Below, in pieces: positions 56,555 to 61,487 of a stretch of DNA of 64,000 nucleotides. The translations under genes were made by a program, and so were the position numbers. Origin of the DNA: Victivallis vadensis. GTDB taxonomy: Bacteria; Verrucomicrobiota; Lentisphaeria; Victivallales; Victivallaceae. The notes under the pieces are model-generated. The model searched no databases. It saw only the letters and a program-made list of their open reading frames with translations, and was not told the origin of the DNA. The stretch covers positions 62,001 to 126,000 of the forward strand of contig NZ_QEKH01000006.1 in NCBI RefSeq assembly GCF_003096415.1. Direction: 5' to 3'. Each line of letters starts with the position of its first letter. Positions within the stretch are counted from its first letter, which is position 1.

Positions 56555-59500
56555 ATGCGCCAGGAAGAGATGAAGCTGTACCTTGACCGCTGCCGGAGAT
56601 TCTGGAGACGGTGTGAACCGGATCTGTTTATCGAGTCGATTCCGGTCCGGGCCGAATTCGCGCGCACCGCGGAGCCGGTGCCGTTCGACGAGCGGCTGAA
56701 ACTCGAATACAAGCCGATCGAAATCGGTGAAGATTGGGGCGAAGCGTGGGACAGCGCCTGGTTCCATCTGCAGGCCGACCTGCCCGAAGCCTGGGCGGGG
56801 CGCGAAATCGCGATGCAGCTGAACCTTTCCGGCGAAAGCCTGATCTTCAACAACGACGGCACCCCGATGTTCGCGCTGACCGGCAACAGCGTGATCAACG
56901 CGAACTACACCAAGGATATCTGCCAGTTCCCGAAGAGCTTCCAGCTCGGCGGCAGGCTCGACCTCTACGTCGAGGCCGCCGCGAACTCGCTGTTCGGCGT
57001 CTTCATGGACGAGGAGCCGCACCGCCTGATCGAAAAGCCGGAGGGCTACTTCCCCGGCAAGGTCAAGGCGATGAAGATCGGCCTGTTCAACCGCGAGCTG
57101 TGGCAGATGCGCCTCGACTTCGAGATGCTGCTGCTCTACTTCGACACCCTTCCCGAAAACGACTACCGCCGCCGCAAGCTGCTGCACGCGATGAACGAGG
57201 CGATCAACCTCTACGCCGACAATCCGGCCAACGCCGCGAAGGCGCGCGGTCCGCTGCAGGAGATGCTCCGGCTGCCCGCGCTCGCCTCCGCGCTGACTGT
57301 GACCGCGGTCGGCCATGCGCATATCGACACCGGCTGGCTGTGGCCGGTCCGCGAAACCATCCGCAAGTGCGCCCGCACTTTCTCGAACCAGCTCGATATG
57401 ATCGAAAAGTATCCGGGCTACGTGTTCGGCGCGTCGCAGGCGCAGCACTATGCGTTTGTGAAGGAGCATTATCCCTCCCTCTATGAGAAGATCAAAGCGC
57501 GCGTCGCCGACGGCAGCTGGGAGATTCAGGGCGGCATGTGGGTCGAAGCGGACTGCAACCTGACCAGCGGCGAATCGCTGGTCCGCCAGTTCCTGCACGG
57601 CAAGAACTTCTTCATGGACGAATTCGGTTTCGACGTGAAGAACCTGTGGCTGCCGGACGTGTTCGGCTACTCCGCCGCACTGCCGCAGATCATCCGCAAA
57701 TCGGGCTGCAACTACTTCCTGACCCAGAAGATCTCGTGGAACCAGTTCAACGAGTTCCCGCACAACACCTTCATCTGGGAGGGGATCGACGGCACCGAGG
57801 TGCTGACCCACTTCCCGCCGGAGAACACCTACAACGCTTTCGTCTCCCCGACCGAACTCGTCCCGGCCCAGAACCGCTTCAAGGAGGCCGACGTGCTCGA
57901 CGAATTCCTGAGCCTTTTCGGCATCGGCGACGGCGGCGGCGGCCCGAAAGAGGAGTTCATCGAACACGCGCTGCGCCTCGGCAACATGGAAGGCATGCCG
58001 AAGGTCAGGCTCGGCCGCGCCGACGCATTCTTCGAGCGGCTCGCCAAGCACAGCGACAAGCTCTACCACTGGGTCGGCGAACTTTACCTTGAAATGCACC
58101 GCGGCACCCTGACCACGCAGGCCCGCACCAAACGCAACAACCGCAAGCTCGAACAGCTGCTGGCGGCCACCGAATTCATCTGCTCACTGGCCCCGCGGGA
58201 ATCCTATCCGGCCGAAGCTCTGGACAAGGCGTGGAAGAAGCTGCTGATCAACCAGTTCCACGACATCATCCCCGGTTCCTCGATCACCAAGGTCTACGAA
58301 GTGACCGAAAAGGAGCACGCTGAACTCTTCAAGGTCTGCGAAAAGCTGATCGCCGACGCGCTCGAGACCATCGGCTCCGCCGACGAAAACGCGGTCAGTT
58401 TGATCAACACCCTCCCCTACGCCTACAACGCCCCGGTCGAACTGCCCGCGTCGTGGGCCGGATGCGCCGTCACCGACGGCTGCGGCAACGAATTCAAGGT
58501 GCAGGTCGAGGACGGCAAGGTCTATGCGCAGGGCGAAATCCCGGCCGACTCGGTCGTCGTGCTCCGTCGCGGCGCGCCGCAGGAGCAGCCCGTGCTTGAA
58601 ACCCGCCGCGAGACCGTGCTCGAAAACGAGCTGGTCCGCTACGAATTCAACGCCGCCGGCGAGCTGGTCCGCGGCTTCGACAAGGAGGCCGGCCGCGAAA
58701 TCCTGCGCGACGGCGAGAAGGGCAATGTATTCTCACTCTATGTCGACCGCCCGAATACCTTCGAGGCGTGGGACGTGGATATCTTCTACGATCAGGAAGA
58801 GCGCACCGGCGCCGAGATCAAATCGATCTCCGATGTGGTCTCCGGCCCGGTCCGGTCCAGCGTGAAGCTGGTCTTCGCGATCGGCAACTCTGAAATCCGT
58901 CAGGAGGTGTCGCTGCGCGCCGGTTCCAAGCGGCTCGATTTCGCAACCGAAGTCGAATGGCATGAGGTGCGCCGGATGCTCCGCGTGCTCTTCCCGGTCG
59001 ACGTAATGACCTCCGAAGCTGCGTTCGATATCCAGTACGGCTACGTGAAGCGCCCGACCCACGGCAACACCAGCTGGGATTCGGCCAAGTTCGAGGTCGT
59101 CGGCCACCGTTACGTGGACTTCTCCGAACGCGGCTACGGTGTCGCGATCCTGAATGACTGCAAATACGGCCACCGCACCAATCAGGGCAACCTCGACCTC
59201 TGCCTGCTGCGCTCGCCCAAGTATCCCGACTGGAATGCCGACCAGGGCCGTCAGGTCTTCACCTACGCGCTGCTGCCGCACACCGGCGAACTCGCGGTCT
59301 CCAATGTGATGCACGAGGCCGCCGTCCTGAACCGCGCTCCGATCGCGGCTCCGGGCGTGGCGGTCCAGGTCCAGGCTCCGTTCCAGGTCCTCTCCGGCAC
59401 CTCGACGCTCGAAGTGCTCAAAAAGGCCGAAAAGAGCGATGATCTGGTGATCCGTTTCGTCGAAACCCGCGGCGGCGCCGATCGCATCGTGTTGAAGACC

Positions 59501-59641
59501 AACCTCGAAAATGTAAAGCTCGTCGAAACCAATCTCGTCGAGTGGACCAGTGAGGCTGAATACGAATTCGACGGCGGCAACTGCCTCGAACTCGCTTTCA
59601 AGCCTTTCGAGCTGCGCACTTTCAAGGTGGTGAAGAAATAA
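56555..59641 (+). CDS. Alpha-mannosidase, GH38
   Basis: 1028 residues, full family length, without a signal peptide. Catalytic domain: zinc motif HAHIDTGWLWP (His256, Asp258) and the nucleophile Asp368 in LWLPDVFGYS. SQAQHYAFVKEHYP and GMWVEADCNLTSGES are strongly conserved GH38 segments. The C-terminal beta domains (~620-1028) contain EVSLRAGSKRLDFATEVEW and NDCKYGH. It cleaves alpha-linked mannose from N-glycan or mannan oligosaccharides in the cytoplasm. Codon bias is noticeably strong (mostly GC-ending), suggesting high expression. It is monocistronic, apparently under LacI-type control by a regulator located elsewhere. Confidence 0.96.
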   Translation: MRQEEMKLYLDRCRRFWRRCEPDLFIESIPVRAEFARTAEPVPFDERLKLEYKPIEIGEDWGEAWDSAWFHLQADLPEAWAGREIAMQLNLSGESLIFNNDGTPMFALTGNSVINANYTKDICQFPKSFQLGGRLDLYVEAAANSLFGVFMDEEPHRLIEKPEGYFPGKVKAMKIGLFNRELWQMRLDFEMLLLYFDTLPENDYRRRKLLHAMNEAINLYADNPANAAKARGPLQEMLRLPALASALTVTAVGHAHIDTGWLWPVRETIRKCARTFSNQLDMIEKYPGYVFGASQAQHYAFVKEHYPSLYEKIKARVADGSWEIQGGMWVEADCNLTSGESLVRQFLHGKNFFMDEFGFDVKNLWLPDVFGYSAALPQIIRKSGCNYFLTQKISWNQFNEFPHNTFIWEGIDGTEVLTHFPPENTYNAFVSPTELVPAQNRFKEADVLDEFLSLFGIGDGGGGPKEEFIEHALRLGNMEGMPKVRLGRADAFFERLAKHSDKLYHWVGELYLEMHRGTLTTQARTKRNNRKLEQLLAATEFICSLAPRESYPAEALDKAWKKLLINQFHDIIPGSSITKVYEVTEKEHAELFKVCEKLIADALETIGSADENAVSLINTLPYAYNAPVELPASWAGCAVTDGCGNEFKVQVEDGKVYAQGEIPADSVVVLRRGAPQEQPVLETRRETVLENELVRYEFNAAGELVRGFDKEAGREILRDGEKGNVFSLYVDRPNTFEAWDVDIFYDQEERTGAEIKSISDVVSGPVRSSVKLVFAIGNSEIRQEVSLRAGSKRLDFATEVEWHEVRRMLRVLFPVDVMTSEAAFDIQYGYVKRPTHGNTSWDSAKFEVVGHRYVDFSERGYGVAILNDCKYGHRTNQGNLDLCLLRSPKYPDWNADQGRQVFTYALLPHTGELAVSNVMHEAAVLNRAPIAAPGVAVQVQAPFQVLSGTSTLEVLKKAEKSDDLVIRFVETRGGADRIVLKTNLENVKLVETNLVEWTSEAEYEFDGGNCLELAFKPFELRTFKVVKK

Positions 59642-59675: not shown

Positions 59676-60386
59676 GGGGATTTCGCTCCTCTGGAGCGAG
59701 CAGGGCGCTTCGCCCCTGCACCCCGACCGGCAAGGTGCCGGCGCCGAATACTTGAGAGCCGGGAAAACCGGAACGGTTTTCCCTCCGGGGGGGGGGAAGG
59801 CTCCGGTAGAGACAGGCATGGTTGTACAGGAGCGGCACACCGCTCCGGTCGGCGCAAAGCCTGCTTTTTTGCAGGCTTTAGGCACTCCCTGCGCCTGCTG
59901 CCGCCGGAGGTCACGCGCGGAACTTCCAGATGCTGACCATCTGATGTGAAGTTACTCTCATGGAGGCTGAACTCTACTTGTCTCTATAATACAGGCAAGA
60001 TTCAGTAAGGCTCGTACTCAAAGATATGCTTACCTGTGATATGGCAATTGTATTGTTGCCTGACCTCGCTTTACGTATATCGGCAGATACACTCTTATCA
60101 GCCTCCATCAGGGTATCTGTCTATTATTTGGTCAGCATCTGGAGGTTCCGCGCGTGACCTCCGGCGGCAGCTCACCGCAGGGAGTGCCTAAAGCCTGCAA
60201 AAAAGCAGGCTTTGCGCCGACCGGAGCGGTGTGTCGCTCAGGTACCTGCTTGCCTGTCCACAGTAGAGTCTCCCCCACCCGGAGGGAAAACCGGAACGGT
60301 TTTCCCGGTTCTTAAGTACCCGGCGCCGGCACCTTGCCGGTCGGGTTCCAAGGGCGAAGCGCCTTGGTCGCCGAAGGCGAAATCCC
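59676..60386. repeat. Long imperfect inverted repeat (about 260 bp arms, 191 bp centre), non-coding
   Basis: Left arm 59676-59938 and right arm 60130-60386 are largely reverse complements: for example CCGCCGGAGGTCACGCGCGG on the left faces its complement near 60147-60167, and GCAAAGCCTGC.. on the left faces its mate near 60190-60215. Each arm carries its own hairpins (AAAGCCTGC/GCAGGCTTT, GGGAAAACC/GGTTTTCCC, CCGGCA/TGCCGG). The AT-rich centre has TGGAGGCTGA (59961-59970) facing TCAGCCTCCA (60098-60107), CAGGCAA facing TTGCCTG, and CAGATAC facing GTATCTG. The 849 bp between the GH38 stop and 60491 hold no gene otherwise. Likely a foldback element or structured RNA. Confidence 0.85.
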
Positions 60387-60421
60387 GGTTTAAGAAACTT
60401 GCACACGGCGTTATTTCGTTT

Positions 60422-60490: not shown

Positions 60491-60967
60491 TTACTCAAAA
60501 ACGGCGGAACCGAAGTTCACGAAGATCATGAAAGGAAGCCAGCCGTTTTTGTTGATGTTGATCAACCCGCACTGGAACTGGGCGTTGTCGTCGCAGTTGT
60601 TGATCAGGCCGAACTGAACGCCGCCTTTGGCGCTCTGATTGACCAAACCGACTTGGGCGCCGTTCAACTGCTGCGTCAGGTTCACCAGAGCAAGCGCGCC
60701 GCCGCTGAGCTTTTCGGCATTGTTGACGCCGAGCAGGGTGAATTTGATTCCCTCCATGTATCTGGTGCCGCTGTAGAAGATTGAGAATTCGCCGCCGTTG
60801 ACGCTGCCGTTGCTGATCGAACAGGGAAGGCCGAAACGGGCTCCGGTGATGCTCTTGTTTTCAATGCCGGCGGGGACGTCGGTCCAGACACCGATATCGG
60901 CTTCGGCGACGGCGGCGGCGGAACACAGCGCGGCAACGGAAAGAAGCATGGATTTCAACAGTTTCAT
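60491..60967 (-). CDS. Secreted repeat protein, LA_2272-like, paralog 2
   Basis: 158 residues: signal peptide (MKLLKSMLLSVAALCSAAAVA), then DIGVWTDVPAGIENKSITG and three or more short repeats of the GxQxGLxN type (GAQVGLVNQ, GVQFGLINN, FQCGLININ). These repeats resemble the LA_2272 surface-protein family and suggest a beta-strand stack. The C-terminus GWLPFMIFVNFG is shared with its neighbour. About 60% identical to the protein at 60999; a recent tandem duplication. The function is unknown, probably envelope-associated. Confidence 0.82.
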   Translation of the reverse strand: MKLLKSMLLSVAALCSAAAVAEADIGVWTDVPAGIENKSITGARFGLPCSISNGSVNGGEFSIFYSGTRYMEGIKFTLLGVNNAEKLSGGALALVNLTQQLNGAQVGLVNQSAKGGVQFGLINNCDDNAQFQCGLININKNGWLPFMIFVNFGSAVFE

Positions 60968-60998: not shown

Positions 60999-61487
60999 TC
61001 ATTTGAAGGTGTCGGAACCGAAATTCACGAAGACCATGAATGGCAGCCAGCCGTTTTTATTGATGTTGATCAGTCCGAGCTGGAACTTCGCGTCGTCATC
61101 GCAGTTGTTGAAAAAGCCGAGCTGGAATCCGCCTTTCCCGGAGAGGTTCACCGCTCCGACCTGAATTCCGGCCAGCCGTTCTTCGGCGATATTCACGCAG
61201 GCGAGTGCGCCGCCTTTGAGCGTTTCGGCCCAGGTCGCCCCGATCCACGCGAACTTGAAAGCTTCGGCATTGCGGGTGCCGCTGAAGAAGATCGACAGTT
61301 CCGCGCCTTTCACGGTCCCGTTGCTGATCGAACAGGGCAGCCCGAAACGGACGCCGGTGATGCTCTTGTTTTCGATTCCGGCGGGCACATTGGTCCAGAC
61401 GCCGATATCGGCCTTCGCTTCATCCGCCGCGACGGCGCCGCCGACGGCCAGAAACGCCGCCAGCAACATGGATTTTCCGAATTTCAT
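60999..61487 (-). CDS. Secreted repeat protein, LA_2272-like, paralog 1
   Basis: 162 residues with a signal peptide. Opens with ADIGVWTNVPAGIENKSITG and has the repeats GIQVGAVNL, GFQLGFFNN and FQLGLININK, ending NGWLPFMVFVNFG as in paralog 2. The conserved single Cys in FGLPCSISNG and NNCDDD may form disulfides. It is 31 bp upstream of paralog 2 and 28 bp downstream of the ABC-F gene, in the same transcript orientation. Confidence 0.82.
   Translation of the reverse strand: MKFGKSMLLAAFLAVGGAVAADEAKADIGVWTNVPAGIENKSITGVRFGLPCSISNGTVKGAELSIFFSGTRNAEAFKFAWIGATWAETLKGGALACVNIAEERLAGIQVGAVNLSGKGGFQLGFFNNCDDDAKFQLGLININKNGWLPFMVFVNFGSDTFK

Follow-up and report, generated by a model that had tools for sequence, protein, structure and literature searches.

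What kind of element is the long inverted repeat that lies between two convergent genes at 59677-60386 of the window (the whole 64 kb stretch of Victivallis vadensis DNA analysed here), and what keeps its hairpins intact? The repeat is real and far beyond chance: as an earlier note on this sequence had described, two arms face each other in inverted orientation, and they resolve into three collinear blocks, 83-85% complementary (59696-59810/60257-60371, 59789-59893/60176-60280 and 59897-59970/60098-60171). The local hairpins described there are likewise present in both arms, and a search of the window revealed no second long inverted repeat. Folded as a single strand, the region reaches -554 kcal/mol, compared with -284 +/- 8 for shuffled sequences (z = -32), and the opposite strand is of similar stability. 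The note overlooked that the repeat belongs to a family, that it occupies a convergent-gene setting, and that its arms are mosaics of exchangeable modules.

An alignment of 34 genomic copies delimits the whole two-headed element at 59677..60386 (710 bp), with the ends GGGATTTCGC. From the outside in, each arm carries hairpins 1, 2 and 3, which form the head, followed by a linker, hairpin 4, a variable stretch, hairpin 5 and hairpin 6. In the left arm (+ strand), the head with its linker (59677..59751, conserved in 60 aligned arms) begins 35 nt past the stop codon of the left gene and comprises hairpin 1 (59683..59699) and hairpin 2 (59700..59719, a GCAGGG..CCCTGC word), whose covarying stems occupy columns 7-25 and 26-45 of the arm alignment A1, as well as hairpin 3 (59727..59741, CCGGCAAGGTGCCGG), a word common to the type U elements described below and to the congener G005. 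Further in lie hairpin 4 (59761..59783), hairpin 5 (59829..59847) and hairpin 6 (59856..59879), the last with a T6 loop that is constant among copies. In three other copies hairpin 6 gives way to a ~133 bp sub-element that brings hairpins of its own, in both arms of one copy (L097) and on one side in two (L087, L091). The right arm (- strand) mirrors this plan with hairpin 6 (60190..60213, its A6 loop on the + strand), hairpin 4 (60284..60306) and a head of hairpins 3-1 (60312..60386). Between the arms is a non-coding centre of constant length that includes the inner arm parts (59897..60170, +) and surrounds an AT-rich core (59971..60097, +), in which CAGGCA-like motifs in opposite orientations permit mutually exclusive pairing. 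Some element ends carry an outer module (ACGCCGTGTGCAAGTTTC) that occurs at 26 places in the genome; here it is found on the right side only, at about 60387-60412 (-), where the genome pattern match C6:122388-122410 corresponds to window 60388-60410.

The left flanking gene encodes a GH38 alpha-mannosidase (56555..59641, +), whose 3' end faces the element, and the right one (60491..60967, -) is convergent with it and encodes a protein of 158 aa without a Pfam match. The latter gene and its neighbor (60999-61487) are tandem paralogs encoding small proteins of unknown family, 79% identical over 151 nt of DNA.

We searched the V. vadensis assembly (5.2 Mb, 87 contigs, 99.5% complete) and other genomes; the element is dispersed in its own genome, and its centre was found neither in 99 relatives nor in 386 other genomes of the phylum. 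The 103 matches in the assembly resolve into 34 two-ended copies, a further copy whose arm is truncated, two interrupted by contig ends, plus a few remnants, so that about 35 full copies are present, with full-length matches 81-89% identical to the window copy. Because the closest pair of copies is only 96.1% identical, there has been no very recent burst. What congeners share is limited to short outer parts, above all in G005, which has 22 occurrences of the hairpin-3 word GACCGGCANGGTGCCG, compared with 135 here and none in seven other congeners; one further exact arm match is found in the Lentisphaeria metagenome assembly UBA5247. No copy was found in the phages and plasmids searched or in viral contigs scanned with an exact pattern from the centre, and a literature search combining Victivallis with "palindromic" returned nothing relevant. 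Among the genomes searched, the family is shown to be species-restricted.

The copies are strongly associated with gene ends. Among the 33 with both flanking genes readable, 24 sit between convergent genes, compared with 8 of 44 adjacent gene pairs in a baseline drawn from this window alone, the element's own pair included (p about 1e-11). Gene 3' ends account for 56 of the 67 readable flanks, where the median distance from stop codon to arm is 15 nt, and the remaining 11 flanks face gene starts 48-650 nt away. These flank counts, like the positions given below for type U and G005, rely on gene calls from a simple codon-usage script rather than an annotation pipeline. Ordinary convergent genes of this genome often overlap and have no such element. 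The element follows serS here, while in congeners GC-rich stem-loops or other sequence occupy this place, and rsmG in congeners is likewise without it; none of the eight congeners preserves the gene order around these two copies, and no empty site could be demonstrated.

A sister family shares the head. We read twenty other loci bearing the hairpin-3 word, and 17 of them contain a one-directional element of ~330 bp, here called type U (L174-L177 and L181-L193). It opens, directly behind a stop codon, with three hairpins arranged as in the head described above, is oriented in the sense direction in 17 of 17 cases, and has covarying hairpins of its own (20 of 84 pairs doubly changed); several are in tandem. 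The heads at the other three loci lie beside the start of pseudopilin-like genes. A hairpin head, or head-like sequence, adjoins the start of type IV pseudopilin-like genes at L102, L178, L179 and L180, apparently within or at the leader. In G005, tandem hairpin-rich units of ~270-550 bp built from related hairpins are found at gene ends (L104-L116). Most of these related hairpins run opposite to the gene whose end is nearest, so orientation is a trait of the family and not a rule.

Within the arms, hairpins 1, 2, 4 and 6 each come in a small number of alternative words, and from word to word the two sides of the stem change in concert. The local stems form standard pairs in 99.2% of 2633 cells, 13 pairs show double changes, and the stem covariation score was matched by none of 500 shuffles. 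The arms are also mosaics: left-left, right-right and left-right arm identities between copies are all about 89%, indicating a single pool, and four-gamete conflicts affect 95% of distant site pairs versus 48% of near ones. Two arms within one copy exceed arms from different copies only slightly in identity (90.9% versus 89.2%; permutation p = 0.0004). This excess is concentrated in the heads (the outer ~75 bp); deeper inside the arm it is weak or not seen. We infer that the two heads of each copy matched at its founding and that copies later traded inner modules. The long fold of the whole element was considered as a conserved structure and rejected: more than ~110 bp in from the ends, left and right arms vary almost independently, so what is preserved in that part is something other than exact long-range pairing. 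Several nested minipalindromes, about 34-111 bp long (L131, L132, L134, L135, L139, L144), have their outer terminus in common with the element and look like the same palindrome minus its middle.

The centre is conserved in a different manner. With a single exception among 24 standard copies, it is 261-266 bp long (~264), and its mean column identity is 92% among 23 copies; part of it is duplicated in several, and just 1 of its 78 predicted pairs contains a double change, leaving almost no covariation. A coding centre was rejected, as reading frames differ between copies, and no coding frame is kept across copies in the element as a whole.

Are the stems maintained at the level of RNA or of DNA? 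Upkeep at the RNA level would make G-U mispairs outnumber A-C mispairs; this is not so in the 2633 stem cells (12 G-U versus 17 A-C, with 8 of the A-C cells belonging to a single pair of hairpin 4). In addition, the loop of hairpin 4 occurs together with its reverse complements (TTC 19/GAA 9, TTT 9/AAA 5, TAC 8/GTA 1, TGC 3/GCA 5), while the loops of hairpins 2, 3, 5 and 6 are never inverted. Template switching by a polymerase has been described to homogenise arms and to invert the loop, or spacer, between them (PMC8604942), and such switching at the DNA level fits the parity of mispairs and the inversion of the hairpin-4 loop better than selection on an RNA does. Judged from these sequence patterns, the near-perfect stems may be kept by the way they mutate rather than by selection. 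Two DNA-level signatures, the almost purely Watson-Crick stems and the one loop found in both orientations, suggest a part for the hairpins when DNA is synthesised or repaired. Two observations speak against pure neutrality: hairpin 6 keeps its T6 loop constant, and the remaining loops are fixed in orientation. Given whole-word changes, the inverted loops of one hairpin and the parity of G-U and A-C, stem covariation by itself is no proof of a functional RNA. With about 60 aligned arms in one genome, selection on hairpins and stem-to-stem copying mutation, two explanations that are usually confounded, can be separated.

Of the earlier suggestion of a foldback mobile element, the dispersed and species-restricted family stands, whereas neither a mobilising enzyme nor a target-site duplication was found. 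The direct repeat common to the two flanks of a copy is no more extensive than that between flanks taken from separate copies (3.44 versus 3.22 nt). Genome-wide enzyme searches covered Y1, TnpB and reverse transcriptase families; the 99.5% complete assembly has no match to the RAYT (Y1) transposase PF01797 and no TnpB domain, and mobilisation of the RAYT/IS200 type was accordingly rejected. The sole RVT_1 match in the genome is a retron-like reverse transcriptase (L197:1366-2331; C20:94502-95083), classified by PADLOC as RT_III-A and RT_Ec107-like; it was set aside, as it was not linked to the element. At those of the 26 outer-terminus places that were read, no second inverted terminus was seen around a gene.

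We consider it reasonably probable that the element is a non-autonomous, formerly mobile mosaic repeat, similar to BIMEs and BOX elements and tolerated at gene ends, and we favour this reading over a bidirectional gene-end element under selection. The absence of a target-site duplication, of a recent burst, of RAYT or TnpB, and of any demonstrable empty site counts against past mobility, and the invariably sense orientation of type U could mean a function at the transcript level. The main rival, although in our judgment unlikely, is that each convergent transcript enters its own sense arm, where the hairpins end the mRNA or stabilise its 3' end and block read-through into the gene opposite. 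Such a role would account for arms that start so close behind stop codons, for the near-perfect pairing of their stems, for type U lying in sense right behind the stop codon in every case, and for the serS stop codon being followed by the element here and by GC-rich stem-loops or other sequence in congeners. However, the hairpins are followed by no U-tract, terminator scans inside the element gave nothing above chance, G-U is not preferred over A-C, many convergent genes of this genome overlap without the element, and the related hairpins of G005 mostly point the other way. More doubtful still is a new class of bacterial interspersed element, consisting of one- or two-headed strings of interchangeable hairpin modules that a 3'-end-directed mechanism sets directly behind stop codons, with template switching replacing their stems one entire word at a time; if true, structure would persist while sequence is reshuffled.

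The almost purely Watson-Crick stems and the convergent position could also point to a cruciform or protein-binding DNA site, serving gyrase, a nucleoid protein or recombination at supercoiled convergent gene ends. REPs, which occur in the gaps of convergent gene pairs, have gyrase, IHF and Pol I as binding partners (PMC1525189), and a role at the supercoiled ends of such genes has been proposed for the BIMEs of E. coli; the CAGGCA motifs repeated in arms and centre would suit a bound protein, but most convergent genes here do without the element, and we regard this explanation as improbable. A large structured RNA was a suggestion of the earlier note, and we find it highly improbable that the locus is the gene of such an RNA whose working part is the centre. 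The conservation of the centre in length and sequence over 23 copies and the very stable fold speak for it, yet Rfam searches at gathering and relaxed thresholds gave no family at threshold and chance-level matches only, the predicted pairs of the centre hardly covary, G-U is not favoured over A-C, a promoter scan inside the element found nothing above chance, and some 35 copies stand at unrelated gene ends. To an assembly artefact of a palindromic join we give practically no credence; the palindromic form alone speaks for it, and the number of copies, in differing gene contexts and with a conserved centre, already refutes it.

A history can be proposed for the formerly mobile repeat. A non-coding, non-autonomous element, built as two six-hairpin 3'-end arms facing each other around a constant centre, would have spread through one species in the past, mainly into convergent-gene gaps; the first ~75 bp of its arm are the head common to the second, one-directional family. 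Each copy would have been founded with matching heads, after which ectopic recombination or gene conversion may have redistributed the inner modules among copies. Through template switching, hairpin-templated DNA synthesis could have kept the stems near perfect and flipped the hairpin-4 loop, and symmetric deletions could have produced the nested minipalindromes. The element would be kept or tolerated at gene ends because the damage it causes at such places is small, and the transcripts of both genes may be terminated or shielded by it.

The element can be compared with several known systems. REPINs are paired inverted REPs around a spacer, mobilised by RAYT transposases, dispersed and species-specific. 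The element resembles them in its two inverted palindromic ends around a spacer and in its dispersed, species-specific occurrence; it differs in having six hairpins in a row at each end and a spacer that is long and conserved. REPs and REPINs are defined by a GTAG or CGTC tetranucleotide at the foot of the palindrome (PMC3733652); such a tag lies within 7 nt of any hairpin foot in 0-1 of 60 arms, and the genome has no cognate RAYT, so the element does not qualify as a REP or REPIN. Foldback transposons and MITEs share with the element long imperfect inverted arms, a short centre, nested deletion derivatives and the lack of coding capacity, and the heads, as inverted copies at both ends, correspond to the terminal inverted repeats of MITEs; unlike these, the element shows no target-site duplication, no cognate transposase was found in the searches for Y1 and TnpB families, and its preference for gene 3' ends is strong. 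The BOX elements of pneumococci are modular, 67-637 bp long, highly base-paired and over-represented between convergent genes, and have been judged parasitic (PMC3049150). Compared by plan, they are boxA-boxB(n)-boxC chains, whereas here mirror-symmetric arms enclose a central core. BIMEs and REPs of enterobacteria and Pseudomonas are extragenic mosaics of palindromic modules, often between convergent genes (PMC1525189). Like a BIME, the element combines palindromic units in mosaic fashion, as evidenced by its word alleles and four-gamete conflicts, and is extragenic, mostly at gene ends (56 of 67 flanks); unlike BIMEs and REPs, it is 710 bp long, with two mirror arms and a constant centre. 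By analogy with BIMEs and BOX elements, it may work in a similar way, being mosaic, structured and convergently placed, and it extends small palindromic repeats of the REP/BIME/BOX type to a symmetric form of 700-960 bp.
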